Shown here one piece after another: positions 23,667 through 50,567 of a DNA stretch of 64,000 nt. How positions within the stretch are numbered: position 1 is the first letter of the stretch; each line of letters opens with the position of its first letter. The notes below the pieces were generated by a model, which was given only the letters and a program-made list of their open reading frames with translations, was not told the origin of the DNA and did no database searches. The translations under genes and the position numbers were made by a program. Source of the DNA: Gemmatimonas phototrophica (GTDB lineage: Bacteria; Gemmatimonadota; Gemmatimonadetes; Gemmatimonadales; Gemmatimonadaceae); the NCBI RefSeq assembly GCF_000695095.2, contig NZ_CP011454.1:3968001-4032000 (forward strand), given 5' to 3'.

Positions 23667-24941
23667 TTAGGTGACCGCCTGCCGAACCTGATATTCCGGG
23701 GCACGCCACGACTCGGTGCGCAGCACATCTTCGAGAACATCCACGGCCTGCACCACGTCGGTGAACCGGAGATACAGCGGCGTCAAGCCGAAACGCATGA
23801 TGTCCGGCGCCCGAAAATCACCAATGACCCCGCGTGCAATGAGCGCCTGCATGATGGCGTACCCCTCGGCATGCCGGAATGACACATGACTGCCGCGCGG
23901 CGCGCCCGGTGGTGGCCCCACCAGCGACACGCCGTACGGGGCACAGCGCACCGCCACCTGATCCATGAACAGCTGGGCAAGGGCGCGGGACTTTTGCAGC
24001 ACCACCTGCATGTCCACTTCAAGGTGCAGATCCACTCCGCTCTCGAGGGCGGCGACCGCCAGAATGGGCGGAGTGCCACAGAGAAAGCGCGAGATGCCGG
24101 TCGCGGGTTCGTAGTGATCCACGAAAGCGAATGGACGCGCGTGCCCCATCCAGCCGCCCAACGGCGACACCAGCGTGGCGTGGTGGCGTTCGGCGACGAA
24201 TAGGAACGCCGGCGCTCCCGGTCCTCCGTTGAGAAACTTGTAGCCACACCCCACGGCCAGATCGGCGCCGCAGTCGTTGAGGGCCAATGGCACGGCCCCC
24301 ACCGAGTGACTGAGGTCCCACAACACCAGTGCGCCCTTGGCGTGCGCCGCCGCCGTGATGGCCGCCATGTCGTACACGTCCGCCGTCTTGTAGTGCACGT
24401 GCGTGAGCAGCACGAGTGCCGTGTTGTCCGTGATCTGCTCGGCAAGGGTGTCCCGCGGTGCGAGCTGCAGCTGGCGGGCGCCACCCAGGGTGGCCAGCGC
24501 CGATTCCACCATGTACAGATCAGTGGGGAAGTTGCCCGGTTCCGACAGCACCACCGTGCGATCGGGACGCGCCGTGAGCACCGCCATGATGAGCTTGGAC
24601 AGATTCACCGACGTGGAGTCGGCCACCACTATTTCATGGGGCCGAGCGCCCACCAGGCGGGCGATTTTGCCGCCCACCCGCTGCGGGGCACCAATCCAGT
24701 CGGCGCTGTTCCAACTCCGGATAAGTCCGGTCCCCCATTCGTGCTGCATCACCGCCTGAACACGGTCGGCGGTTTGCCGAGGGAGCGCGCCGAGGGAATT
24801 GCCGTCGAGGTAGATCACCCCCTCCGGCAACTGAAAACGGTCACGGTACGAGGCTAGCGGATCGGCGGCGTCGAGCGCGGCGATGCTGGACGATGAAATG
24901 ACGGCGTGGTCCACCGCAGACTCCGTGCTGGGCTGTGTCAT
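23667..24941 (-). CDS. kynU: kynureninase
   Basis: 424 residues, the usual length of the family. PLP-enzyme hallmarks: YLDGNSLGALPRQTADRVQ, DWIGAPQRVGGKIARLVGA, VVADSTSVNLSKLI, VLWDLSHSVGAVPLALND and the Schiff-base lysine in VGCGYKFLNGGPGAPAF. It cleaves kynurenine to anthranilate and alanine in the cytoplasm. The start overlaps the stop of the upstream dioxygenase gene by one base (TGATG), indicating coupled translation. The anthranilate it releases is the substrate of the CoA ligase encoded downstream. Confidence 0.97.
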   Translation of the reverse strand: MTQPSTESAVDHAVISSSSIAALDAADPLASYRDRFQLPEGVIYLDGNSLGALPRQTADRVQAVMQHEWGTGLIRSWNSADWIGAPQRVGGKIARLVGARPHEIVVADSTSVNLSKLIMAVLTARPDRTVVLSEPGNFPTDLYMVESALATLGGARQLQLAPRDTLAEQITDNTALVLLTHVHYKTADVYDMAAITAAAHAKGALVLWDLSHSVGAVPLALNDCGADLAVGCGYKFLNGGPGAPAFLFVAERHHATLVSPLGGWMGHARPFAFVDHYEPATGISRFLCGTPPILAVAALESGVDLHLEVDMQVVLQKSRALAQLFMDQVAVRCAPYGVSLVGPPPGAPRGSHVSFRHAEGYAIMQALIARGVIGDFRAPDIMRFGLTPLYLRFTDVVQAVDVLEDVLRTESWRAPEYQVRQAVT

Positions 24942-26053
24942 CAGACGTGCGCGTTGCTGGTGGAGCGGTGTGCGCCACGAAGGAATGAATCGAGGGCGGT
25001 GCCACCGGTTCCCGCCATATCGCGCGTGGCGCCCGACGGGGCGACGATGTAGTCGTGGGCAAGGCGCATGTGTGCCTCACGGAAAGTGGCGATCGTGGCG
25101 AGCGCCTCGTTGTACCCCTGCTGCAGCGCCGGCGTCCCCCCGACAACTCGCTCGCGGACCCGGGTATCGCGCTCGGCATCTTCCACGAAGGTCCGATGCG
25201 GCGGCGGCATATAGCCGCGCACGGCGCGCAGATAGGCGCCCGCCGGGGCGTCCGCATGATGAACACCCAACATGGCGTCAAAGAGTTGCAGGAGCGCACT
25301 CTGCGCCGCACTGCCGCCAATGAATCGCCGTGGTTCGTCAGAGACGCCTTCGTACACCACCCCGGGCTGCGGCCAGCCGGCCACAAACGGGCGAACGCGC
25401 AGGTAGTAGGTGGCCGGATCGCACCACGTGCGTACATGCTCCAGCGCGGCCTGCACCCCAGCCATTCCATGCGTGAACTGCTCAAGGGCGCGCGTCAGTT
25501 CGGCATCACTGCCGTCGCGCGAGGCTTGCAGGGCATCGGCCACGACTGGCAGCAGCGGCGCCCCCGCCAGCTCCACGCCCATGGACGCAATGAAGAACCA
25601 GTCTTCATCTACCCCGCCGAGGAACTGGATCTGGGTGCGCGCGTTGTCCACTGACACCGGCTGTGTGGGGTCTACCAGCCGCCAATTGGTCAGGGTGGTG
25701 GTCGCATAGTGCGCGATGGGCTGTCGTCCCATCTCCGCGGCCAGAGCACACAGCGGGACGGCCACGGTGGCCGGCAATTGCAGGTCGGCGCTGTCGCCGC
25801 TCCAGACATAGCCATTGGCAAAGTGCGTGAGCAGCAGCAGTGCCCGTTCGCGATCTCCCTCGAGGACCAGTTCCCCAATATCCAGCATGGGGAGCGCCCG
25901 CAGCGCGGCGCGCAGACGACGGGCGCGGATCAGTGCCGACATCTCCGGGACCAGCGCATCCCAGACGGCGTAGCTGGCCGGCAGGTGGTGCGGGAGGGGG
26001 ACCGGGGGGACAAAGCCGGTGACCGGATGAACATGGTAGTGGGAGAGGTCCAT
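24941..26053 (-). CDS. indoleamine 2,3-dioxygenase-type tryptophan-degrading heme enzyme
   Basis: 370 residues. The sequence follows the indoleamine 2,3-dioxygenase family, not bacterial tryptophan 2,3-dioxygenase: HFANGYVW, SVDNARTQIQFLGGVDEDWFF, VYEGVSDEPRRFIGGSAAQS followed by LLQLFDAMLGVHH, and GYMPPPHRTFVEDAE. The proximal heme histidine is expected in the C-terminal FREAHMRLAHDYI. It opens the indole ring of tryptophan to N-formylkynurenine, feeding kynureninase after deformylation. IDO-type enzymes are uncommon in bacteria. It is the first gene of the island, with a strong promoter at 26061-26090 whose -10 ends 7 nt before the ATG. No formamidase gene is present in the window. Confidence 0.93.
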   Translation of the reverse strand: MDLSHYHVHPVTGFVPPVPLPHHLPASYAVWDALVPEMSALIRARRLRAALRALPMLDIGELVLEGDRERALLLLTHFANGYVWSGDSADLQLPATVAVPLCALAAEMGRQPIAHYATTTLTNWRLVDPTQPVSVDNARTQIQFLGGVDEDWFFIASMGVELAGAPLLPVVADALQASRDGSDAELTRALEQFTHGMAGVQAALEHVRTWCDPATYYLRVRPFVAGWPQPGVVYEGVSDEPRRFIGGSAAQSALLQLFDAMLGVHHADAPAGAYLRAVRGYMPPPHRTFVEDAERDTRVRERVVGGTPALQQGYNEALATIATFREAHMRLAHDYIVAPSGATRDMAGTGGTALDSFLRGAHRSTSNAHV

Positions 26054-29380: not shown

Positions 29381-30202
29381 CTACGACTGCACCAGATGCA
29401 CGGCGAACCAGACTGACGGGAGCGCCGCGCTCCACACCAGCAGAAACCGATTGAGCCCGAAGATCAACGCGGTGGTCAGGTGAAAACACCAGGCCACCGC
29501 GCTGTATATCAGGCAGGTCGTGGTGTTGAACAACGCGAGGGGGGCCGCCAGTTCAAAGAGGATTACCATCACCGACACCACGCGCAACAGCGCCGGAGCC
29601 TGCGGCACCCACGTAGGCACACCGTACGCCGGGATGGCCAGAAAGCTCCGTAAGGCCTCGCCTGTCCACCAGCTGGGCTGCCTGGCTTTCACCAGCCCGG
29701 CGCGAAAATAGGACAAGAGCAGCTGAGCCGCGACGAACAGCACGGCGCCCTGCGCCAGCCGCGGGGAGGCCATGGGAGCCGTGGCCACGGCGAGACCCAC
29801 GAGCACCGTAAACAACATGCCGTCGCTCCCGCCGTTCACCGTGCCGCGAAAACGAACCGCGGTGAGCCAGAGAGTCATCGCGAGCGCCGCCGCTGAGAGC
29901 GAACCGCCAAGCGTCGATCGATCAGGCCGCGTGGCGACGAATAACAACGTGACAGCCAGCAGTCCCTGCAGGCGCGGCAACTGAAGGAGCGCCGCCGATT
30001 GCAGGAGTGGGCGCCGCCACCCCCACCAGGGCGCCAGCAGGTCGGCTCGCCATACAGCGTGCATCAGGCCGCGCCGCCACAGCGCCTCCTGCTCAAGCGC
30101 AATCGTACAGCACGCCACGGCCGCCAGCGCTTGCATGATGCGAACCACCGCTGGCCAAGTCGCAGACACCAACGCCGGCGGCATTTCGGCCAGCAGCATC
30201 AT
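29381..30202 (-). CDS. HTTM-like membrane protein
   Basis: 273 residues with about seven to eight transmembrane helices. LRSFLAIPAYGVPTWVP, FELAAPLALFNTTTCLIY and the final WCFHLTTALIFGLNRFLLVW resemble the HTTM (horizontally transferred transmembrane, vitamin K-carboxylase-like) family, in which a conserved histidine follows FH near the C-terminus. ATG 30202 overlaps the stop of the 140-residue protein gene as ATGA, so the two are made together. Assignment to HTTM is by topology and these C-terminal motifs only; function unknown. Confidence 0.65.
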   Translation of the reverse strand: MMLLAEMPPALVSATWPAVVRIMQALAAVACCTIALEQEALWRRGLMHAVWRADLLAPWWGWRRPLLQSAALLQLPRLQGLLAVTLLFVATRPDRSTLGGSLSAAALAMTLWLTAVRFRGTVNGGSDGMLFTVLVGLAVATAPMASPRLAQGAVLFVAAQLLLSYFRAGLVKARQPSWWTGEALRSFLAIPAYGVPTWVPQAPALLRVVSVMVILFELAAPLALFNTTTCLIYSAVAWCFHLTTALIFGLNRFLLVWSAALPSVWFAVHLVQS

Positions 30203-30621
30203 GACGGGAAAGCCTCCGGCCGGCTTTCGTAGATCGTGCGCACCGCGTGCGGGTGCAGTGCATCCACCGCAACAATGCGCCACTGCCATTGGCCGTGCGC
30301 GGCCCCCGTATGGTCGGAGCGTTCATGCGTGCGCTCCTCAAGGCTCCACGCTGCGACGGCTGCCACCAGAGCAACGGTAGTGCCATCGTGCTCTCCCGAC
30401 TCCTGCTCAACCGCCAGACGATCCACGATCGCTTGCATGGCCAGGTGCGCCGTCCCCTCCGGATGGTAAAGCACGGCCCAGCGTCCTCGCGCGGGAGCAG
30501 CCAGCGCTGCACGCCACGGACCGGCGACACCATTCTCGGTGAGCCCGCGAATCTCAAGTCGGGGCACATCGGTAATGGCATCGAAAAAAGCCCACGACGG
30601 AAAGAGCAGGCGCCACAACAT
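30199..30621 (-). CDS. hypothetical protein, partner of the HTTM-like protein
   Basis: 140 residues, no signal peptide. It begins MLWRLLFPSWAFFDAITD, then RLEIRG, WAVLYHPEGTAHLAMQAIVDRLAV and, at the end, WRIVAVDALHPHAVRTIYE. No known domain. It starts at ATG 30621 with an extended -10 promoter 5 nt upstream and is coupled to the membrane protein gene by an ATGA overlap. It may be a soluble cofactor of that protein (inference). Confidence 0.7.
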   Translation of the reverse strand: MLWRLLFPSWAFFDAITDVPRLEIRGLTENGVAGPWRAALAAPARGRWAVLYHPEGTAHLAMQAIVDRLAVEQESGEHDGTTVALVAAVAAWSLEERTHERSDHTGAAHGQWQWRIVAVDALHPHAVRTIYESRPEAFPS

Positions 30622-30626
30622 GCTGG

Positions 30627-30635
30627 ACTATAGCA
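30627..30635 (-). promoter_or_regulatory. extended -10 promoter for the 140-residue protein/HTTM operon
   Basis: Minus strand TGCTATAGT (30635-30627) is an extended -10 box ending 5 nt before ATG 30621, consistent with a leaderless message. No clear -35 is seen, as expected for the extended type. Confidence 0.5.
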
Positions 30636-30697
30636 TAATCTCCGGCCGCCGCCGTTCGCCCATTCGACAGCGGGCGTTCGCCGGTGCATCGTCAGGG

Positions 30698-33600
30698 ATG
30701 CGCTTGCTTGCTCGAATCAGTGCCTGCGTCGCCGCCATTGGGCTGCTGACCGCGGCACAGTCGGCTGATGCCCCCTCGCCACCGTCCGCCACCCAACGGG
30801 CGGGCGCGGGCTCGCGCACCCTGGTGTGGGCCGTGGATGGGCTCAGCTTCGAGGCCTTTACCGAGGCCCGTCGGCGCGGCCTCTTTCGCCAATTCCAGTA
30901 CGCAGGGCGACATGTGGCCCCCTATCCATCCATGAGCCACCCCTCGTGGACGGAGATCACCGGCGCTCGGCGCCTGTTTGGCGCACGGGGAACCATGCGG
31001 TCGATCGAAGCAAACTGGTTTGATCTGGACGCCATGCGCGTGCAGGATGATCCCCGCGAGGTGTTTGTCCGACAGGCCCACCCCTTCAACTACATGCGGG
31101 CCTTCGACTGGTTCTTTGATCCGCTCGTGGAGCCGCTCATGTATTTCGACGGGGGCCGCCTCGTGGAGCGGGAACTGGCCGAGGCCGAGCGGAATGTGCT
31201 GGAGCAATTCACCGGCACGCATCATGTAGCCTTCCTCGGCGCGGCCGATGCGCTGGCCCATACACACCTCAACGGCCTGCACCCGTATTTGCGTCGGCTG
31301 GACGCCATGATGACCCGCGTCCTGGATTCGCTATCCCGCCGTGGTGGTCCCCCGGTGGAGAGCTGGATGCTCTCCGATCATGGAAACGCCGGCGCCTTTG
31401 CCGAGGGGGCACCGGAGCGACGGCTCACCCCTGTGTCGCTGGACGCCGCATTCCGTGCGGCCAGGCTCGTGCGCAAGGACTCCGGACAGTTGACGCGCGC
31501 GAATGAAGCGAGTGTGGTGACCCTCGCGTTGGCCAGTATGATCAACGTCTACTTCGCCGATCTGGAGCGACGGCGTGCCTTTGCCGTGGCGGCCGCCGCA
31601 CATGGCGCAGTGGATCTGGTCACGTGGCTCGAAGTGCGTGGCGATGATCGCTACGTCGTCATCTACAGTGCGGTGAAGGGCGAAGCCACATTGCGCTGGC
31701 GCGAGGACGGCGCCGTCGCATACACCGCCCACACCGGGAACCCGCTGGGAATCGCCGAGGCGCTGTGGTCGGCACCGGGGGCCGCACCTCGCTGGGTGCC
31801 TGATGCCACCATGCGCGCGGCAACCATGAATGGCGCCTACCCTGACGCCCCGTTCCGTCTCATGCGTAGTGCCGGCAAGGAGGTGGAGAATGCCCCAGAT
31901 CTCATTGTGAACCTGCGCGACGGATACTGCTGGGCGGGTCCACTGGGACGCTACGTACAGATGGTTCGCACGCATGGTGCGCTGGGTGCACGCGCGACGC
32001 TTGGCCTGGTGGCGAGTACACACACGGCGGTACCTCACTCCGTGCGCAGTCATGAGGTGCTCGCCCTTACCGGCCTCACCGAGCGTGGGCTCTTCAATCG
32101 GGTGCTGTCGCTGGCGCCGCACGACGCTCGCCAGTTGGCCGAGAGTCTGTCCACCGGTTTGCCAATGCTGGCCACCGGACGCGACGACGACCACACCGAC
32201 GCGGCGTTTTTGCGCCGAGTTCGCCCCCTGACCCTGTCGGCGGCCTTCTTTGACTGGTCTGCGCTCCGCGATCTGTCGGCAGCGGTGCGCGGCCCCCCCT
32301 CAACACGCGCCGCGCAGCAACGACGCGTCTCGCGTTCGCGACAGGCGTTGCAACAGGCACGTCTCGTGGATGGGGTGACCACGCACCTCGATACGCTGCT
32401 AGCGCTTGCCGACGAGATTCCGACCGCTTCGACGGCCACCGACACTGACCTCTCACGACTGGCGGAGCGCACGACGGCACGGCTGCGCGCGATACCCGAA
32501 CTGTCGCCCCTGGCCACGCTCTACGACCTCTGGTTTGGTCGGCGTACAACGGCCGCGACGCTGCCGGGTAACGCCGTCCGGCGCGCGGCAATGGCCGTCT
32601 GGACGATGCCCCATTTTCTCGATGCCGCGCTGTACGCCCCGGAAACCGAATCCATTCCCGACACGCGCGACCGCGTCTTTGCCCTGCACTGGCATCGCGA
32701 CCAGCGTGACAAAGTACGGGCCGGTCCCGGCATGTTGCTCAACGACAGCACGGTGGCCCCTCGTCTGTTTACCCAGATCCTGGCGGAACGGGAACTGACA
32801 CGTCGGGTGGAAGGCGCGAGCGTTCCCTTGCTCTATGACGCGCCCGTCGGTGACATCACGGTGGTCTACGCGCCCGGCATCTTTGGCGAGCTGTTCGACG
32901 ATGAGATCTGGCAGCGGGCGTTGCGCAGCATCCGCGAGCGGCTCGGCGTGCGCGTGCTCCCGGCAGGGACCGATGGGCGATGCCGTGCCAGCGACAACGC
33001 CGGGCGTCTGCTGCAGCAGTTACGCGACGATACGCGCCGCCGCACGGGGCGCGGGTATGCCCGCCCCCGCTATGTCATTGTGGGGTATTCCAAAGGCGGC
33101 GTTGACGCCAGCGAGGCGCTGCTGCGCGACACGGTACTGGCGCGTGAACAAGTCGCGGCGCTGGTGACCATTGCGTCGCCGCACCTCGGCACACCCGTGG
33201 CCGAGCGCGCGGATATTCCCGAGGCCGTCTTCCGGTGGTCCGTCGCCCGACCACGTCCGGCATCATGTGACACCACGCGCGCAGTGGAGTCGCTCTGGCC
33301 CGCCAATCGGGCCGGCTTCTGGGGAGCGGCGGGGCGATCGCTGGGCGACGTTGTGCCGCTGTATTCGCTGTCGCTCGTGTCTGACATGGCCGACGCACAT
33401 CCCTGGATGAAGATCACCAAGCGCATTGCCCGGTTCTCCGAAGAGAATGACGGCGTGGTCGCGCAGTCATCATCGCGCTTCCCGACGGAGATTCCGTCGG
33501 TTCATCTGGGAGCGGTACGTGGTGATCATATTGCCGCGCGCAGTGCGTCGGCATTTCCGCAGGAGAGTGTGTTGGAGAGTGTGCTGCTGACACTCAACGA

Positions 33601-34570
33601 AGTGGGGGCCTTGGAGCCACAGGCGGCAAATGCGTGGCGCCGTGCGGTAGCAGCACGGACGCAAGTCGCGGAGACCTCGAACGCAACGACGTTGGGACCG
33701 CAAGCACAGGGCGAGGGGGCCACCACCCTGCCGTTGACGTCTCGGAGCGTCGCACGCCAGCGGCAAACACTTCCGGGTGGCACCGGTGGGTGGACCGCGC
33801 AGCGCACGTTTCGCATGAACGGGCTGGAGTCACTGGCCGAAGGCACGGTCACTGAAGCCACACCGGCGTTGCTGCCTACGGGCATCCGCCTGTATTGCGA
33901 TCAGGAGTCCATGTCGGCGTTCCGCGAGGAGTACGCGTTTCTTTACGACGCCGGGAATGGCGGCAGCGAGAACAACCGCGCGAACGGATTCTCGATTGTA
34001 GGGGCCGATACCCCCAGCGGTCGCGCCTGTCGGCTGCGGACCCAACGCACGGCCATGAAAATGACAACCGTGGCATTCCGCTTTGCACCGGCCGATTTTC
34101 CGGAGTTCTCGCTCAGAGTGCGCGTGGACAGCGGCGTGGCTGGTGTGGCCCCCGGCAAGGGCGGCCGCGGCCGGAACGATGCCACGATCAAGGTGTGGTA
34201 CGTCCTGCGCGACGAGCGACCGGCGAGCAAGAAGCGTCGCCTGCTCTTTGGCTATACGTGGGGAGCCCGTGACGCCAATGGCAACACTCCCGCGGCGGAT
34301 TCACTCATGGAGGCCGGTGCGTCCAGACGGCGCATTGCGTTCTCCGTACTGCCGGAAGCGTGGGTGATCAACATTGGCGGACCGTCGGCAGAGGGCCGCT
34401 GGACTGAGATCCGTCGCGATTTTGCCGCCGATGTACGACGGGCGTTTCCCGGAGTGCCACTGGACGCTCTGCGGGTCATTGCGATCACCGTGCAAAGCGA
34501 CTCCGACGACTCACGCGGTCTCACCGACGTGCTGCTTGATGCGCTCATCATGCAGCCCCTGTCGCGCTAG
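30698..34570 (+). CDS. three-module exported protein: phosphodiesterase-like, lipase-like and DUF3047-like domains
   Basis: 1290 residues with a signal peptide (LARISACVAAIGLLTAAQSADA). Module 1 (about 45-460) is an alkaline-phosphatase-superfamily type I phosphodiesterase: AVDGLSFEAF, SMSHPSWTEITG with the nucleophile position, FLGAADALAHTHL, MLSDHGNAG and a late histidine cluster. Module 2 (about 715-980) is an alpha/beta hydrolase of lipase type: VVYAPGIFGELF, IVGYSKGGVDASEAL with nucleophile S, ASPHLGTPVAERAD, an acid in ENDGVV and a histidine in GDHIAARS. Module 3 (about 1035-1290) resembles DUF3047 (IKVWYVLRDE, LLFGYTWG, GRWTEIRRDF and VQSDSDD). I know of no described protein combining these. 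An alternative start at 30620 only lengthens the pre-signal region. Confidence 0.85.
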   Translation: MRLLARISACVAAIGLLTAAQSADAPSPPSATQRAGAGSRTLVWAVDGLSFEAFTEARRRGLFRQFQYAGRHVAPYPSMSHPSWTEITGARRLFGARGTMRSIEANWFDLDAMRVQDDPREVFVRQAHPFNYMRAFDWFFDPLVEPLMYFDGGRLVERELAEAERNVLEQFTGTHHVAFLGAADALAHTHLNGLHPYLRRLDAMMTRVLDSLSRRGGPPVESWMLSDHGNAGAFAEGAPERRLTPVSLDAAFRAARLVRKDSGQLTRANEASVVTLALASMINVYFADLERRRAFAVAAAAHGAVDLVTWLEVRGDDRYVVIYSAVKGEATLRWREDGAVAYTAHTGNPLGIAEALWSAPGAAPRWVPDATMRAATMNGAYPDAPFRLMRSAGKEVENAPDLIVNLRDGYCWAGPLGRYVQMVRTHGALGARATLGLVASTHTAVPHSVRSHEVLALTGLTERGLFNRVLSLAPHDARQLAESLSTGLPMLATGRDDDHTDAAFLRRVRPLTLSAAFFDWSALRDLSAAVRGPPSTRAAQQRRVSRSRQALQQARLVDGVTTHLDTLLALADEIPTASTATDTDLSRLAERTTARLRAIPELSPLATLYDLWFGRRTTAATLPGNAVRRAAMAVWTMPHFLDAALYAPETESIPDTRDRVFALHWHRDQRDKVRAGPGMLLNDSTVAPRLFTQILAERELTRRVEGASVPLLYDAPVGDITVVYAPGIFGELFDDEIWQRALRSIRERLGVRVLPAGTDGRCRASDNAGRLLQQLRDDTRRRTGRGYARPRYVIVGYSKGGVDASEALLRDTVLAREQVAALVTIASPHLGTPVAERADIPEAVFRWSVARPRPASCDTTRAVESLWPANRAGFWGAAGRSLGDVVPLYSLSLVSDMADAHPWMKITKRIARFSEENDGVVAQSSSRFPTEIPSVHLGAVRGDHIAARSASAFPQESVLESVLLTLNEVGALEPQAANAWRRAVAARTQVAETSNATTLGPQAQGEGATTLPLTSRSVARQRQTLPGGTGGWTAQRTFRMNGLESLAEGTVTEATPALLPTGIRLYCDQESMSAFREEYAFLYDAGNGGSENNRANGFSIVGADTPSGRACRLRTQRTAMKMTTVAFRFAPADFPEFSLRVRVDSGVAGVAPGKGGRGRNDATIKVWYVLRDERPASKKRRLLFGYTWGARDANGNTPAADSLMEAGASRRRIAFSVLPEAWVINIGGPSAEGRWTEIRRDFAADVRRAFPGVPLDALRVIAITVQSDSDDSRGLTDVLLDALIMQPLSR

Positions 34571-34585
34571 CCACACGGGCTGCGG

Positions 34586-37500
34586 TCAGGTGGCCTGCAC
34601 GCGCCCGGTCCGCTCCAGCTTGCCCCAGCCCGGTGCCCATCCCTTGAGCGCCGCACGCATGGCTTTCAGCAAGGCCACATAGAGCACCTGGCGATACGCA
34701 ACGCGCTGCAGCGGTACCAACAGGGCCTGCGAAAGTTTTTCGCCCGGCTCGAAGGCCACGCCAATCAGCGCCGTGACGGTGTCCACCGCGAGGAAGAACA
34801 GATACAGGAGCGCGACCGGCTCCGCATGCGCCCACGCGGCATGTGCGCCCAGCACGGGGCTCTCCACGAGGAATCGTGCCAGCGTGGCCAGCAAGGCCAC
34901 GTCGGCCGCCGGTGCCAGCAACGGAAACAGCAACTGAAAGAGCCAGATGTTGGGGAGCCCCACGAGACCCAGCGCACCCGAGCGACGACGCCCCAACGCC
35001 GCGCGATGCTTCCACGCGCACTGCAGCGTGCCAAAGCTCCAGCGGAATCGCTGCTTGAGCAGCGCTTCAAACGTTTCCGGCGCCTCGGTCAGTGCCACTG
35101 CCTGATCGGCCAGCGCCACGCGATGGCCGCGCCGCAGCAGTGTCAGCGTGAGGTCCTGATCTTCGGCCAGCGTGTCGGTACGAAATCCGCCCGCGTCCAG
35201 CACCGCGGCGCGCCGCCACGCACCGATGGCGCCAGGCACCACGGTAATGCAATTGAGCATCACGAACGCCCGGCGGTCGAGGTTTTGGCTCGTGACATAC
35301 TCCACGGCCTGCCACCGCGTCACGAGATTGACACGATTGCCAACCTTGGCATTGCCCGCCACGGCACCCACCCGACGATCGGCGAGCGGGCGGACGAGAT
35401 GGCGTATGGCGTCAGGGGCCAACAGCGTATCGGCATCAATCACCACGATGATCTCGCCGGTAGCGACGGTCATGCCGTGGTTGAGCGCGGCGGCTTTCCC
35501 GCCGTTCGGCTTTCGGATGACGCGTACCCGCGGATCATCCGTCGCCAGTTGCGCGGCCGCCGTCGTATCGTCGCTGGAGCCATCATCCACCACGATGATC
35601 TCGAACTGCGGATACACCTGCTGTAGTACCGACCGCACGGTGCGCCCAATGACCCGCCCTTCGTTGTACGCGGGAATCACCACGGACACCAACGGCAGGA
35701 ACTCGGCGTCTTCGGCGCGCCGTCCGTATCGCGGCCGCGCGAAACGCGGCACGAAGCGCTGCAGCCCGGCGAGGCTGCCAATCGCCACCAGGCGCAGCAC
35801 GCCGAGCACCAGCGCGAGCAGAAACGTACCGACCAGCAGCGCTTCGCCAATATTGGCGACATTGATGGCGGCCAGATTGAGCGCACGCTGTGGCGCTTCA
35901 TCACGCGGAGCACTGGGGGTCCCCGCTTGCGGAGTCACGTTCAGCAGCCCCGCAACGGTGGTGAGTTCGAAGCCCCGTGCGCGCAGGGAGTCAATGAGCG
36001 GGCCGAGTGCCGCAATGGTGGAGGCACGATCGCCACCCGCGTCGTGCAGCAGGATGATGCGTCCGTTTTTGCGCTCCAGCGCCGATAGTGCATTCGCGAT
36101 GATCTTCTGCGGGTCACTTTCGAACCAGTCCTTGGTATCGATCTCCAGTGCAGCCACGCGATAGCCCAGCTCATTGGCGATTGCCATGGGGCGCAGCCGT
36201 TCATCAGTAGCGGGACGCGCATCGCCAATGTACGGGGGCCGGAAGAGCAAGGGCCGATGGCCGGTGACGGCCTCAATGGCCCGACCGGTGGCGGCGAGCT
36301 CCATGCGCACCGCTGGCGCGCTCAGGGTGGCGAAATCCGGATGACTCCACGAGTGATTCCCGATCTCATGGCCTTCTGCCACGATGCGACGCGTGAGGTC
36401 AGGCAAGTGTTGCACCTGACGACCCACCACGAAGAAACTCGCCACGGCGTGTCGCGACGCCAGCGTGTCGAGGATGGGGGCGGTGAAGGTGGGATCAGGC
36501 CCATCATCAAAGGTGAGCGCGACCCGGTTGACCGCACTGCCTCCTCGCGATACCAGATAGCCCCCGGCTGGCTTCTCCAGTGACTGTCCTTCCACATACC
36601 CGGCGGAATCGACCGCGACGCTGCGCAGTCCAATGCCTTCGTGACCTTCCACGGCGAGGATCTCGCCCTCGCCAACAATCACCGAGACGCCGTCATTGGG
36701 GAGCGCGCGCAAGGAGTCGAGGTGCCCCTCCAACCCTTCGCGGCCCAGCACACGCCAGAGCGTGACATCTTCCCCACCCAGTCGCCAGAGCGCCATACCG
36801 GCCACGCCCGTAGCACGGGCAGCCCGCAGCTGATTCCACGTGGTGGTGGCATCGAGATACCACACGCTGTGGGTAATCCCCTGAGCATCGCGCCAGGTGG
36901 CATTCGGATTCCGGGTGCGTCCATCAAACCACGGGCCTCCCTTTGCCGCTCGCCCCAGCGCCATGGCTTCGCCCACACTCACCGTGGCCGCCTCCGGGCG
37001 GTCGCTCCGCCAGTGGTAGCCATACTGGCCCAGCCCCACCAGCAGCTTGTGCGCCGGGATGGCGTCGAGCACAACATCGAGTCGGTCGGCAAACCACGAC
37101 GCGCTGGCCACGGGCCCTGGGGTATTCACGCCGGCATGCTCGTCGTACAGCATCGGAATGACGTAATCGAGCGCGTCGCCGTACTGCGCCAACGGATAGT
37201 GATCGTCGGCGCTGACAGGCAGTGCGGCCGAGACCACCGCTTGCAGCGGCCGGAGAGCAGCGCGGAGGTCGGTGATGAACGCCAGTACCTGCGGATGCGC
37301 TGCGGCCGGGACCAATTCAAAGTCTACGGTGACTCCCTGCAATCCATGCTCCTTCACCACATCCACGAGCTGCCGCACCGCGCGCTGACGCGCCGCCGCG
37401 GTGCCAACCACCGACATGACAAGGGAAGAGTCAAACCCCGAGGCGCCGAAGTTGGTCAGCATGAGGTGAATATCCGCCTCATGCTTTCGCGCATCGTCCA

Positions 37501-37927
37501 GGAGATCTTCGTCGAGCGTGACGGTGATCTCGTTGCGCTTGCCTCGGCCCAGGAACGCGCCTTCGATGATGATCCAGTCCAGTCGGTTGCCGTAGCGTTT
37601 TACCGAGGCCCGACTGGCAGCATCCCACTGCACGGCAAAGCCGGCAATAATGGGGTCACCGACCGGCGCCGCCTGATGCCGCGGGCGCGCCATGGCCGGA
37701 CAGCCCTGCGCAGGGCACGCCGGTGCGGGCGCCGCCTGCGTTCGGCTCGCCCGCACCACGGCGGACCCGATGGCCATAGGCAGCGGATCCACCACCGGTG
37801 GATTGAGGACGCCAATGGCAACAGACCCGACCAGCAGCGCGCCAATGGCACTGATGGCAACGAGTACCGAACGGAGCGATTTGCTCCGCTTTCCTGACGG
37901 ATCGTGGAAAACTGGACGAGGAGACAC
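34586..37927 (-). CDS. GH18-like, polysaccharide deacetylase and processive glycosyltransferase 2 fusion
   Basis: 1113 residues, starting at GTG 37927. A membrane anchor (about 20-42) leads into an extracytoplasmic GH18-like domain (about 90-400; GVTVDFELVP holds the D-x-E of the catalytic motif). A NodB deacetylase follows (about 470-640; LTFDDGPD, NHSWSHPD, FRPPY). After another helix comes a family 2 transferase (about 745-975; VSVVIPAYNEG, VVDDGSSDD, VIDADT, EDQDLT, QRFRW) with C-terminal transmembrane helices. Such fusions make and deacetylate a beta-linked N-acetylhexosamine polymer at the inner membrane, like the PNAG system in one chain. Substrate is inferred. It is divergent from the GMC genes by 116 bp. 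Confidence 0.88.
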   Translation of the reverse strand: MSPRPVFHDPSGKRSKSLRSVLVAISAIGALLVGSVAIGVLNPPVVDPLPMAIGSAVVRASRTQAAPAPACPAQGCPAMARPRHQAAPVGDPIIAGFAVQWDAASRASVKRYGNRLDWIIIEGAFLGRGKRNEITVTLDEDLLDDARKHEADIHLMLTNFGASGFDSSLVMSVVGTAAARQRAVRQLVDVVKEHGLQGVTVDFELVPAAAHPQVLAFITDLRAALRPLQAVVSAALPVSADDHYPLAQYGDALDYVIPMLYDEHAGVNTPGPVASASWFADRLDVVLDAIPAHKLLVGLGQYGYHWRSDRPEAATVSVGEAMALGRAAKGGPWFDGRTRNPNATWRDAQGITHSVWYLDATTTWNQLRAARATGVAGMALWRLGGEDVTLWRVLGREGLEGHLDSLRALPNDGVSVIVGEGEILAVEGHEGIGLRSVAVDSAGYVEGQSLEKPAGGYLVSRGGSAVNRVALTFDDGPDPTFTAPILDTLASRHAVASFFVVGRQVQHLPDLTRRIVAEGHEIGNHSWSHPDFATLSAPAVRMELAATGRAIEAVTGHRPLLFRPPYIGDARPATDERLRPMAIANELGYRVAALEIDTKDWFESDPQKIIANALSALERKNGRIILLHDAGGDRASTIAALGPLIDSLRARGFELTTVAGLLNVTPQAGTPSAPRDEAPQRALNLAAINVANIGEALLVGTFLLALVLGVLRLVAIGSLAGLQRFVPRFARPRYGRRAEDAEFLPLVSVVIPAYNEGRVIGRTVRSVLQQVYPQFEIIVVDDGSSDDTTAAAQLATDDPRVRVIRKPNGGKAAALNHGMTVATGEIIVVIDADTLLAPDAIRHLVRPLADRRVGAVAGNAKVGNRVNLVTRWQAVEYVTSQNLDRRAFVMLNCITVVPGAIGAWRRAAVLDAGGFRTDTLAEDQDLTLTLLRRGHRVALADQAVALTEAPETFEALLKQRFRWSFGTLQCAWKHRAALGRRRSGALGLVGLPNIWLFQLLFPLLAPAADVALLATLARFLVESPVLGAHAAWAHAEPVALLYLFFLAVDTVTALIGVAFEPGEKLSQALLVPLQRVAYRQVLYVALLKAMRAALKGWAPGWGKLERTGRVQAT

Positions 37928-46754: not shown

Positions 46755-49700
46755 ATGCGTAATTCAACGCAGCGCAGCCGGTGGCCTTTGGCCCGCTGCG
46801 CTTCGTGGGTTTGGGTGGCGCTGGTAATCGGGCTGGCGCCCGTCAGTGCGCGTGCCCAGAACATCATCAGTGTGCCCTTCACCAAGGGATTCATCGGGAC
46901 ACGCGGTTCGTCGGCCGGTACGGCCAACAACGTGCTGACCTACACCACGCTGGGAATTGCCCGCACGTTTTTCATTCAGAATTCGTCGAGTACGACCTTC
47001 GAATTGCAGGGAAATGACATTCCGGGAACGTTACGGATTGTCCGGACCGATGGCAGCACGCTCGACATTCCCGCGTCGGCCAATTGGCGGAACAGTGGTG
47101 GCACCACCTACCTCATTGGCATTCTGCCGCGCCCGGTTACGCCCATCACGTTCACCTATGGCGGCGGCTCCATCCAGATCACTGATGGGTCAAGCAATGG
47201 CGGCAGCAGCGTGGGCGGTTATTCCGCTGCCTACGCGGGCGCCACCCTCGCTGATGGTGAAAGTACCAGCGGCAATGCTGCCCAGTCACAAGTACTGAAT
47301 GGTTTGAACGCCTACCTCGCCACGGTACTCAGTTCACGCCCCAGCGGCCCCGTCACGGTGGCCACGCTCAGTACGTCCGACAACACGCCAACCCTCACGG
47401 GGACGGCGACGCTGCAAAGCGGCGAGAACCTCACGGTCGTGGTGAATGGCGTACAGTACTCCACCAGCACATCGCCGGCGCTGAGCGTCAGTGGCGGCAC
47501 CTGGTCCCTGACGCTCACCTCCTCGCTGGCCGCCGGCAGCTACGACATTTCGGCCACCATCACCAATGCGGATGGGTTCACGCTCAGCGACGCGACCACC
47601 AACGAGCTGACGATCGCGCCTGCCGTGACCATTGGCGGCAGCTTCACTGCCAACAACAAGGAGTACACGGGCACGACCGCAGCCACCGGCGTTACCACCG
47701 GGCTCACGTTGAGCGGCGTGGCTGGTGGCGACAACGTCACCATTGCCTCCGTCACGTTGGCGTTCGGCACCGCCGGCGTAGAAGACGGGAAAACCGTTTC
47801 CATTGTCAGCGTGACGCTCGGCGGCACCAATGCCGGATCGTATACGGTGGATCTCACCGGCGCTCCGACCGCTACCGCGAACATTACCACACGCGCCCTG
47901 ACCATCAGCGGCGTGAGTGCTCAGAACAAAGTGTATGATCGCAGCAACGCGGCCACCCTGTCGGGCACGGCGGCCTACGTTGGGCTGCAGAATGGGGAAT
48001 CGTTTGTCGTGACCGGCACACCCGCGGCGACTTTTGCTGATCCGAATGTTGCCAACGGTATTGCCGTGTCGGTCAGTGGGTATACCGCGCCCAGTGCGAA
48101 CTACTCGGTGACTCAGCCGGCGTCGTTGACCGCCAATATCACGCAGAAAACGCTCACGGTCTCCGGGACGTTTACCGCACCGGATAAACCGTACGATGGC
48201 ACCACCAGCAGCAGCATTGCCACCAACAACCTGACGGTGGGGACGGTAGAAACGGGAGATGATGTTTCCATTGATGCCGTCGTTGTGGCCTTCGGCAGTG
48301 CCGGCGTCGGCAGCAATAAAACGGTATCCATCACGTCGCTCACCTTGGGTGGCAGTGCCGCTGGCAATTATCAGATCAGCCTGACCGGTGCCCCTACCAC
48401 CACGGCCAGCATCACGTCCAGTGGCCCCACGCTCACGCTGGGCGGCACCTTTACGGCCAGTAACAAGACGTACGATCGGACGCTCGCCGCCACGGGTAAC
48501 ACGACGGGGCTCACCCTCGTCGGCGTGAATGGCGGCGACGAGGTGAACATTGCCTCCGTCACGCTGGCGTTCACGTCGGCCACCGTCGGCACCGGCAAAT
48601 CGGTGGAGATCACTTCCGTGACCCTCGGCGGCGCCCAGGCCGGCACGTACGCGCTGGATCTGACCGGAGCACCATCTGCCACGGCCAACATCACGCCGGC
48701 GGAGCTGACCATTGGCGGCAGCTTTACCGCCAACAACAAGAGCTTTGACGGCAACACCAGTGCCACCATTGCCACCAACAGCCTCACCCTGACGGGCGTG
48801 ATTGCCCCCGACGCCGTGTCGCTGACCGGCGTCACCGCCGCGTTCGGGACGGCATCGGTGGGCAACGGCAAGTCGGTTGGACTCAGCGCGGCCAGTCTCA
48901 CCGGTGCCGCCGCCGGAAACTACACCGTGAGCCTCACCGGTTCGCCCACAACCACCGCGAACATTCTCGGTACCCCAACCGTCACCATTGGCGGTGCGTT
49001 CACGGCCTTCAACAAGGTGTATAGCGGCACGGTTGCCGCCACCGGAAACACAGCGGGGCTCACGCTGTCCGGTGTGAATAGCCCGGATGAAGTCACCATT
49101 AGCACCGTCACGCTGGCCTTCCAGTCAGCGACGGTCGGCACCGGCAAGTCCGTGGTGATCACGGGCGTCACGCTCGCAGGTGCGCAAGGTGCGCTGTACG
49201 CCGTGAATCTCGCCGGTGCCCCAACGACGACGGCAAACATTACTCCGCGCCCCGTCACCATTGGCGGATCGTTCACGGCGCGCGACAAGACGTTTGACGG
49301 CAATACTTCAGCGCAGATGGTCACCAATGCCCTGACCGTAGAGGGCGCGGTGAATGGCGAACAACTGTCGCTGGGGTCCGTCTCCATTGCCTTTGCCACC
49401 GAGGTCGTTGGCCCCGCGCGTCTCGTTTCCATTCAGGGCGCTGACCTGCTGGGTACTACCGCGGGCAACTACGTGCTGTCCCTCGACGACGCACCAACCA
49501 CCACGGCAAGCATTCGCGGCCTTGAGCCCCCAGGCATGCCGCGTACCCTGCTCGTCACTCCGGGTGATGGCAGTCTCAGTGTGACATGGACGCTGCCTTC
49601 GGTGGAAGGCTGTGAGGCCATCACGGGATTTGCGCTGGAGCACAGCAGTGATGATGGCGCCACGTGGACACGGATTGCCGTGAACTCACGAGTACCGGGA

Positions 49701-50567
49701 GCGGTTTCGATTGCGCCGGTGGCGAACAATCTCACGTACCGCGTTCGTGTTGCCGCCATCAACAGCTGCGGGATGAGCGGGTTTGCCGAAGCCACACCCG
49801 TCACGCCCACAGGTCCGGCCCGCGAGGGGAATGGCGGCCCGCGACAGAATGGTCCGGGCACCAACACGGTCACGCGCAATGGCACCGACGTGCCGGTCAC
49901 CACGACGGTGGTCGCCGATACGGTGCTGCTGATTATGGCCCCCGATTTCACGCTGCAGGTGCGATCGGCGGACACTACGGGTGCGCCCGTGCCACCCGAT
50001 AGCCTCACCCTGCAGCTTGAGCACGGTGGCACCGCTTTCACCAGCGGCACCGGGTTCGCACCGTCCAGCTGGGTATCGCTGTATATCTACGGCCTAACCG
50101 GTACGCCTCGCTTCCTTGGCAAGGTTCAGGTAGACGCCGGCGGCAACTTTGCCACCTCGGTACCGATTCCGAGCGACCTCGCCGAGGGCAACTACACCCT
50201 GCAGGTGAATGGAGTGGACACCGCGCGGCGCGCCCGAACGGCCACACTGGGCGTGCAAGTCGTTGAACCGTTGCCCGACCTCGTGCTGGCATCGGTGCCA
50301 GATCGTACGGATATGACGGTTGGAGACACCGTGACCTTTGCCCTTACGGTTACCAACACCGGACGTGGTGCCGCTACGGATGTGGTCATTCCACGCGCGT
50401 TTTCGGAACCGGGCTTCCGCTTCGTCTCCGCGACACCGGTGGACGGCAGCTATGACGCGACCACGGGCAGCTGGACCATTCCCCGGATTGCAGCAGGCGG
50501 CGTAGCCCGCCTTACCCTCCGAGCGGTGGTATTGGCCCCCTCGTCATCCGGGAGCGTCGCGCCGTGA
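46755..50567 (+). CDS. large exported surface protein with seven YDG/MBG-type repeats, fibronectin III and CARDB/DUF11 domains
   Basis: 1270 residues. Signal peptide ALVIGLAPVSARAQ. Residues about 35-190 form an N-terminal beta domain; an Ig-like domain follows (TVATLSTSDNTPTLTGTATL). Seven tandem repeats of about 92 residues (DNA 47620-49520) start with the pattern TIGGSFTANNK-x-YDG and end with TATANIT, as in the YDG/MBG families of adhesins. A fibronectin III domain (PGDGSLSVTWTLP) and a C-terminal DUF11-type domain (LALTVTNTGRGAATD-like) finish it. There is no sorting signal or membrane anchor. GAGAGG 6 nt upstream supports ATG 46755. It overlaps the lipoprotein gene as GTGA. Confidence 0.88.
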   Translation: MRNSTQRSRWPLARCASWVWVALVIGLAPVSARAQNIISVPFTKGFIGTRGSSAGTANNVLTYTTLGIARTFFIQNSSSTTFELQGNDIPGTLRIVRTDGSTLDIPASANWRNSGGTTYLIGILPRPVTPITFTYGGGSIQITDGSSNGGSSVGGYSAAYAGATLADGESTSGNAAQSQVLNGLNAYLATVLSSRPSGPVTVATLSTSDNTPTLTGTATLQSGENLTVVVNGVQYSTSTSPALSVSGGTWSLTLTSSLAAGSYDISATITNADGFTLSDATTNELTIAPAVTIGGSFTANNKEYTGTTAATGVTTGLTLSGVAGGDNVTIASVTLAFGTAGVEDGKTVSIVSVTLGGTNAGSYTVDLTGAPTATANITTRALTISGVSAQNKVYDRSNAATLSGTAAYVGLQNGESFVVTGTPAATFADPNVANGIAVSVSGYTAPSANYSVTQPASLTANITQKTLTVSGTFTAPDKPYDGTTSSSIATNNLTVGTVETGDDVSIDAVVVAFGSAGVGSNKTVSITSLTLGGSAAGNYQISLTGAPTTTASITSSGPTLTLGGTFTASNKTYDRTLAATGNTTGLTLVGVNGGDEVNIASVTLAFTSATVGTGKSVEITSVTLGGAQAGTYALDLTGAPSATANITPAELTIGGSFTANNKSFDGNTSATIATNSLTLTGVIAPDAVSLTGVTAAFGTASVGNGKSVGLSAASLTGAAAGNYTVSLTGSPTTTANILGTPTVTIGGAFTAFNKVYSGTVAATGNTAGLTLSGVNSPDEVTISTVTLAFQSATVGTGKSVVITGVTLAGAQGALYAVNLAGAPTTTANITPRPVTIGGSFTARDKTFDGNTSAQMVTNALTVEGAVNGEQLSLGSVSIAFATEVVGPARLVSIQGADLLGTTAGNYVLSLDDAPTTTASIRGLEPPGMPRTLLVTPGDGSLSVTWTLPSVEGCEAITGFALEHSSDDGATWTRIAVNSRVPGAVSIAPVANNLTYRVRVAAINSCGMSGFAEATPVTPTGPAREGNGGPRQNGPGTNTVTRNGTDVPVTTTVVADTVLLIMAPDFTLQVRSADTTGAPVPPDSLTLQLEHGGTAFTSGTGFAPSSWVSLYIYGLTGTPRFLGKVQVDAGGNFATSVPIPSDLAEGNYTLQVNGVDTARRARTATLGVQVVEPLPDLVLASVPDRTDMTVGDTVTFALTVTNTGRGAATDVVIPRAFSEPGFRFVSATPVDGSYDATTGSWTIPRIAAGGVARLTLRAVVLAPSSSGSVAP
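47620..49520 (+). repeat. seven tandem ~276-bp repeats inside the adhesin gene
   Basis: Units begin near 47622, 47898, 48153, 48432, 48705, 48981 and 49254. Each begins with a TIGGSFTANNK-like block and ends with ATANIT-like residues; unit 2 is shorter and closest to classic MBG. Nucleotide identity between units is high in the start and end blocks, making recombination between units likely. Confidence 0.8.

Follow-up and report, generated by a model that had tools for sequence, protein, structure and literature searches.

We analysed a window of 64,000 nucleotides from Gemmatimonas phototrophica (assembly GCF_000695095.2, contig NZ_CP011454.1, positions 3,968,001 to 4,032,000; all coordinates below are those of the window unless a locus is named). 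One of its genes, at positions 30698 to 34570, encodes a protein of 1290 amino acids (aa) that joins a predicted phosphodiesterase (module 1), a predicted lipase (module 2) and a DUF3047-like module (module 3). The predicted order of these modules is not peculiar to one genome: a conserved family with this order spans Gemmatimonadota and Bdellovibrionota. The domains are known ones in a conserved arrangement; what is new is this arrangement, for which we found no functional description in the titles and abstracts of the open-access literature. We tentatively propose, with a probability of roughly 0.4, that this would be an exported two-enzyme protein that dismantles extracellular glycerophospholipid, probably to obtain phosphorus and carbon.

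A module order conserved in two phyla

The three-module protein was present in 8 of 30 Gemmatimonas genomes, with the gene split by contig ends in two (G005 and G022), and two genomes of a sister genus contain a full-length copy. A scan of the whole collection retrieved it from seven Gemmatimonadota-type records and from one metagenome-assembled genome (MAG) of the Oligoflexia (JACMNQ010000044.1). One of these seven records, L049, is titled Candidatus Kuenenia stuttgartiensis; its copy is of the Gemmatimonas type, and the title probably reflects a mislabelled bin. A search of the Bdellovibrionota yielded around 21 Bdellovibrionia genomes with full-length homologues, in frames of ca. 1318–1426 aa and in one case split over two contigs, as well as two further full-length homologues outside the Bdellovibrionia (G501 and G520). 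These homologues rule out a fusion unique to G. phototrophica. The initial annotation knew of no described protein with this order, which holds only as far as a functional description is concerned, since the order itself recurs in both phyla. In a phylogenetic tree, a Gemmatimonadota clade and a Bdellovibrio-type clade are separated, each with full support; therefore, the fusion is either old or was transferred between phyla, and the data favour neither. Many Bdellovibrionota genomes (for instance, G513, G527 and G478) also contain stand-alone frames of ca. 400 aa for the lipase module, which match residues ca. 690–975 of the full-length relative L052.

Full-length orthologues within the genus Gemmatimonas show 48–69% identity. 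Pairwise ratios of nonsynonymous to synonymous substitution rates (dN/dS) were ca. 0.03–0.21 in modules 1, 2 and 3, and higher (0.20–0.32) in the linkers, with the signal segment barely constrained; as estimated from these ratios, all three modules are under purifying selection. Likewise, all the predicted catalytic and metal-binding residues are invariant in 20–21 aligned rows from the two phyla, save for a Ser/Thr exchange at position 80 and for one deleted relative.

This relative, L035 (L035:1399-4338, − strand), comes from another genus of the family (genome G107) and encodes 979 aa, with residues ca. 96–432 deleted in frame. The deletion removes most of the phosphodiesterase core, beyond the nucleophile segment, and leaves the lipase triad and the DUF3047 module intact; its junction is flanked on both sides by similar GC-rich sequence. 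Unless L035 results from an assembly collapse, the remainder of the protein can be retained without the phosphodiesterase.

Reading frame and export signal

Positions 30698–34567 form 1290 codons without an internal stop, followed by a stop codon at 34568–34570 (+ strand). The frame stays open upstream of 30698 as far as a GTG at 30539. Position 30698 is nonetheless the likely start codon, because the orthologues L002 and L003 offer nearby N-terminal starts only at the equivalent Met (MRLFARI) or at codons 3–5 upstream of it. A chance open reading frame or a frame artefact is ruled out by the orthologues, by codon-position GC and by dN/dS. The genome of G. phototrophica is a single contig of 4.717 Mb.

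30698 to 34570, + strand: whole gene for the predicted exported phosphodiesterase-lipase-DUF3047 protein (open reading frame translation and orthologues)
30698 to 30769, + strand: signal-peptide-like N-terminus, residues 1–24, MRLLARISACVAAIGLLTAAQSAD (hydrophobic stretch read from the sequence)

The aligned homologues also have signal-like N-termini, and the three-module protein is probably an exported chain.

The single chain with its motifs, as first annotated, was confirmed, with VDGL at residue 46, SMSHPSW at 78, SDHGN at 226, GYSKGG at 796, ENDGVV at 916 and GDH at 942. Two motifs absent from that annotation, DALAH (D184 and H188) and RTHG (H426), complete the metal site. The identities proposed for the three modules (phosphodiesterase-like, serine lipase/esterase-like and DUF3047-like) are also supported; the support comes from orthologues, from profiles and from predicted folds, with all Pfam scores of the protein itself under the cut-off. 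Curated NCBIfam families gave no match near the cut-off for either the 1290-aa protein or its relatives. For the two hydrolases, both the folds (Z 19.4 against ENPP6 and 20.7 against MGS0156) and the key residues agree with the proposed families, the triad and the metal ligands being in register with those of solved enzymes. As judged by matching of folds and by sequence register, the outcome that the initial annotation named as refuting, non-matching folds or misplaced key residues, was thus not observed. Conserved residues and folds together indicate two apparently intact hydrolase sites, unrelated to each other, on the one chain.

Module 1: a predicted ENPP-type phosphodiesterase

The AlphaFold2 (AF2) model of module 1 has a mean predicted local distance difference test score (pLDDT) of 71, with a large share of the core over 85. 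In Foldseek comparisons it matches phosphonoacetate hydrolase, ENPP6 and XacNPP (E 8e-7 to 1e-6). ENPP6 is also the top solved fold in the VIA list, with 293 residues aligned at 3.8 Å (model residues 38–463; it is the source of the Z of 19.4 above), and autotaxin and ENPP1 follow within one Z unit. The superfamily fold is common to all of these and to the envelope enzymes YejM and BcsG, which rank far below the ENPP types (45 and 49 in Foldseek). The matches in the fold and profile comparisons include the nucleotide pyrophosphatases ENPP1/3 and XacNPP; profile alignment with XacNPP and ENPP1 places D184/H188 and D227/H228 in register, at weak E-values of 0.01–0.07. The 1290-aa protein gives no match to PF01663 at E 10, although two full-length orthologues, L033 with 26.0 bits and L034 with 24.6, score above the 23-bit cut-off. 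We term the module ENPP-like because PF01663 passes only in these orthologues and not in the protein itself.

30809 to 32092, + strand: module 1, predicted ENPP-type phosphodiesterase of the alkaline phosphatase superfamily, residues 38–465 (AF2 model, Foldseek, VIA, and PF01663 in orthologues)
30836 to 30838, + strand: Asp47, predicted metal ligand (VDGL); invariant, equals ENPP6 Asp32, placed by motif order
30935 to 30937, + strand: Ser80, predicted nucleophile (PSMSHPSW); Ser/Thr conserved, ENPP6 counterpart Ser71
31247 to 31261, + strand: Asp184 and His188, predicted metal ligands (DALAH); invariant except in the phosphodiesterase-deleted L035, aligned with DEAGH of XacNPP
31376 to 31381, + strand: Asp227-His228, predicted metal ligands (SDHG); invariant except in L035, aligned with SDHG of XacNPP and ENPP1
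31973 to 31975, + strand: His426, predicted metal ligand (RTHG); invariant except in L035, equals ENPP6 His354 by motif order

In ENPP6, Ser71 is the nucleophile and zinc is bound by Asp32/His241 and Asp193/His197/His354 (PMC4757880); the ligands of module 1 follow the same order. D47, D184, H188, D227, H228 and H426 are invariant in orthologues and stand-alone paralogues, and also in the aligned Bdellovibrionota homologues. At position 80, Gemmatimonadota and the Oligoflexia relative L052 have Ser, and Bdellovibrio-type rows have Thr. Because Ser and Thr exchange here between phyla, whereas Ala occurs in some rows at the neighbouring S83 and T85, position 80 is the likely nucleophile of the alkaline phosphatase type. 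Together, our computations show module 1 as a predicted ENPP-type metallo-phosphodiesterase fold with a full set of two-metal ligands and Ser80 as its likely nucleophile.

The genome of G. phototrophica also contains a stand-alone relative of module 1 of 611 aa (L022, G000:C1:2776414-2777625), and similar stand-alone frames occur in most genomes of the genus that gave any match.

Module 2: a predicted MGS0156-like lipase, and its linker

Module 2 follows a helical linker of ca. 210 residues to which no family could be assigned. With its borders set at 466–715, the linker is the fastest-evolving large part of the protein, with 54–58% identity in the genus and 16–18% to Bdellovibrio-type rows. 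A second AF2 model gave low confidence for residues 466–677 and a predicted template modelling score (pTM) of 0.47, and hence the relative placement of the modules is uninterpretable.

32093 to 32728, + strand: helical linker, residues 466–677 (mostly helices of low pLDDT in the AF2 model)
32729 to 33607, + strand: module 2, predicted MGS0156-like alpha/beta-hydrolase esterase/lipase, residues 678–970 (profile, Foldseek and VIA)
33089 to 33091, + strand: Ser798, predicted catalytic serine (GYSKGG); invariant, aligned with MGS0156 Ser232
33449 to 33451, + strand: Asp918, predicted catalytic acid (ENDGVV); invariant, aligned with MGS0156 Asp350
33527 to 33529, + strand: His944, predicted catalytic histidine (GDHIA); invariant, aligned with MGS0156 His373

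A profile of residues 456–1290 matches the metagenomic carboxylesterase MGS0156 (PDB 5d8m) with an E-value of 1.1e-12 and with Ser, Asp and His aligned. The predicted fold has the same enzyme at rank 1 both in Foldseek (E 3.7e-9) and in VIA, where the alignment covers 248 residues and the next family lies four Z units lower. The aligned residues in 5d8m are spaced 118 and 141, which exactly matches the spacing of the published Ser232/Asp350/His373 triad (PMC11236915). MGS0156 degrades polylactide, polycaprolactone (PCL) and poly(butylene succinate-co-adipate) (PBSA) (PMC11236915) and shows lipase activity on long-chain lipids, including olive oil; its authors found no known hydrolase family in which to place it (PMC5341072). 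This last circumstance may account for the weak lipase scores of the 1290-aa protein in Pfam, which stay below the cut-offs for PGAP1 (PF07819, 16.3 against 24.3 bits) and DUF676 (PF05057, 14.3 against 20.3 bits). Computation thus shows module 2 as a predicted MGS0156-type serine carboxylesterase/lipase with a complete Ser798-Asp918-His944 triad. Another candidate relative of the lipase module, L017, was rejected and is actually a different protein with repeats that, by eye, are Ig-like and RCC1-like.

Module 3: a predicted DUF3047-like beta-sandwich

33833 to 34567, + strand: module 3, predicted DUF3047-like beta-sandwich, residues 1046–1290 (PF11249 in relatives, hhalign and Foldseek)

The score of the 1290-aa protein for PF11249 is subthreshold (15.6 bits, cut-off 27). 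The family is over the cut-off in the full-length relative L052 (29.1 bits for the whole protein and 34.4 for the module alone) and was detected in all six relatives of one scan; in several relatives, module 3 aligns with most of the profile. An hhalign comparison with two stand-alone DUF3047 proteins was of moderate strength (probability 74.9, E 2.6e-5, 132 columns), and the NDA..KVW and TIQSDSD stretches resemble those copies. A model of two modules gave Foldseek matches to GH12-type beta-sandwiches, which we assigned to its C-terminal beta-rich part; the VIA list for this model is filled by lipases, and the fold of module 3 is read from the Foldseek rows alone. Module 3 is thereby shown, computationally, as a predicted divergent DUF3047 beta-sandwich, and a binding role would be a guess from this fold. 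No function was on record for DUF3047 (PF11249) in the open literature that we searched.

Genomic context

In Gemmatimonas, the neighbouring genes encode an M20 peptidase, an HTTM protein and a convergent GH18-CE4-GT2 protein, and they are kept only in close relatives of the same genus. We therefore rejected a conserved operon, as the neighbours are common only within the genus. The convergent gene (34586–37927, − strand) encodes 1113 aa with a GH18 domain, a polysaccharide deacetylase (CE4) and a family-2 glycosyltransferase; it stays beside the three-module gene, with the flank held, in the genus relatives L045 and L046. No consensus promoter or terminator was found within 30200–34700.

The context is different in one Bdellovibrio clade, formed by G537 and three relatives (to ca. 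75% protein identity), in which the homologue lies between ppk/sixA and ppx, phoU and a PhoB/PhoR-like pair. This neighbourhood is a weak hint of a link to phosphate metabolism. An IS200-like transposase gene adjoins the homologue in three of these four genomes.

G537:C1:951000-968000: locus L074, homologue among ppk, sixA, ppx, phoU and a pair of response regulator and histidine kinase

Elsewhere in the window, a kynureninase gene adjoins one for indoleamine 2,3-dioxygenase (23670–26053, − strand), forming a tryptophan-to-kynurenine segment. Additionally, positions 46755–50567 (+ strand) encode a large surface-type protein of 1270 aa in which seven YDG repeats occur together with a DUF11 domain and one bacterial Ig-like domain.

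What the protein may do

In the mechanism that we propose, the lipase would act outside the cytoplasm and strip acyl chains from glycerophospholipids or lysophospholipids. The tethered phosphodiesterase would cut the exposed diester of the glycerophospho-headgroup, or the lysophospholipid, as ENPP6 does with glycerophosphocholine, and fatty acids, glycerol and a phosphorylated product would be released for uptake. Module 3 might tether the enzyme to membranes, to debris of the envelope or to glycans. The role would be nutrient scavenging for phosphorus and carbon in Gemmatimonas, and could be the digestion of prey lipids in Bdellovibrio. We favour phospholipid because both hydrolases keep their fold and catalytic residues; because ENPP6, the top VIA match of module 1 (with autotaxin and ENPP1 nearly tied), is a glycerophosphodiesterase with a Ser nucleophile; because MGS0156 shows lipase activity on olive oil and also cleaves polyesters; because the three modules stay together in two phyla under purifying selection; and, with less weight, because of the ppk/ppx/phoU neighbourhood in the G537 clade. 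The lipoteichoic-type substrate offered as a variant in the initial annotation appears less likely, because the fold of module 1 is nearest to ENPP-type enzymes. A more specific form of the proposal is speculative, and we hold it to be rather improbable: lipase and ENPP-type phosphodiesterase would act in sequence, within one chain, on a single membrane-derived substrate, with the DUF3047 sandwich holding lipid or glycan, and Gemmatimonadota and Bdellovibrio would in this way recover phosphorus and carbon from the membranes of other cells.

Several points weigh against phospholipid dismantling. The substrate of both hydrolases is one that we infer, and we know of no natural substrate of MGS0156. 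L035 loses the phosphodiesterase yet keeps the lipase triad, so that coupling between the two reactions is not a necessity and the modules can perhaps be separated. In the other Bdellovibrio-type genomes examined the gene lies elsewhere, outside any Pho neighbourhood, and none was seen in Gemmatimonadota; also, the Escherichia coli-type Pho box pattern occurs at chance frequency, with none near the gene.

The loss in L035 would also suit two hydrolases with unrelated substrates that are merely exported together, the esterase for polyesters or neutral lipids and the phosphodiesterase for nucleotides or other soluble phosphodiesters, as a general scavenging enzyme. The activities of MGS0156, the nearest characterised relative of module 2, on polylactic acid, PCL and long-chain lipids agree with this, as do the matches of module 1 to the nucleotide pyrophosphatases XacNPP and ENPP1/3 and the occurrence of both modules on their own, in the 611-aa phosphodiesterase frame and in the ca. 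400-aa lipases of Bdellovibrionota. However, retention of the order in both phyla, across a long evolutionary distance, speaks for a functional link, and we regard co-export as somewhat unlikely. Alternatively, the protein could edit the cell envelope, removing acyl esters and phosphodiester substituents from lipopolysaccharide, lipoproteins or glycopolymers of the own cell or the prey, with module 3 binding glycans. The GH12-type neighbours of module 3 have a fold common in glycan binding, the convergent GH18-CE4-GT2 glycan enzyme is retained beside the gene in two Gemmatimonas relatives, and YejM and BcsG do appear lower in the fold list; but the association with the glycan enzyme is confined to close relatives, the envelope enzymes rank far below the ENPP types and sugar binding by DUF3047 would be a supposition, so we consider envelope editing unlikely. 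Least probable, and in our opinion very unlikely, is a catalytically degenerate module that serves only for binding or regulation, in a protein whose signal-like N-terminus and motifs are otherwise genuine. This would fit with Pfam scores that are all under the cut-off and with a relative, L035, that does without the phosphodiesterase core, but the catalytic and metal residues are invariant in the rows from two phyla, L035 excepted, and dN/dS is low in each module.

At minimum, the phosphodiesterase-lipase-DUF3047 order represents a family conserved across two phyla and no oddity of one genome. The same protein in many relatives of Bdellovibrio suggests a possible common strategy for breaking down lipid-like material extracellularly. 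If both sites share one substrate, the protein would be an unusual natural pair of lipase and phosphodiesterase in a single chain, and a conserved Bdellovibrio-type protein whose part in prey digestion could be tested by gene deletion; DUF3047 would also gain a testable setting. Should phospholipid dismantling by one chain be true, it would provide the first function for DUF3047.

Comparison with known systems

The closest counterparts are the homologues from Bdellovibrionia (for instance, that of G537) and from the Oligoflexia MAG, which have the same three modules, order and predicted catalytic residues in a length class of ca. 1320–1465 aa. They differ in sequence, with 30–45% identity by module, in the Thr nucleophile of the Bdellovibrio-type rows and in their genomic context. 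With ENPP6 and XacNPP, module 1 shares the predicted fold and the two-metal ligand set, as well as, with ENPP6, the Ser nucleophile, although identity is only 10–15% and module 1 is fused to a lipase. Likewise, module 2 resembles MGS0156 in its predicted alpha/beta-hydrolase fold and in having Ser, Asp and His at the published triad positions, but the two are only 22–25% identical and the solved MGS0156 chain, of 347 residues, comes without a phosphodiesterase or DUF3047 module.

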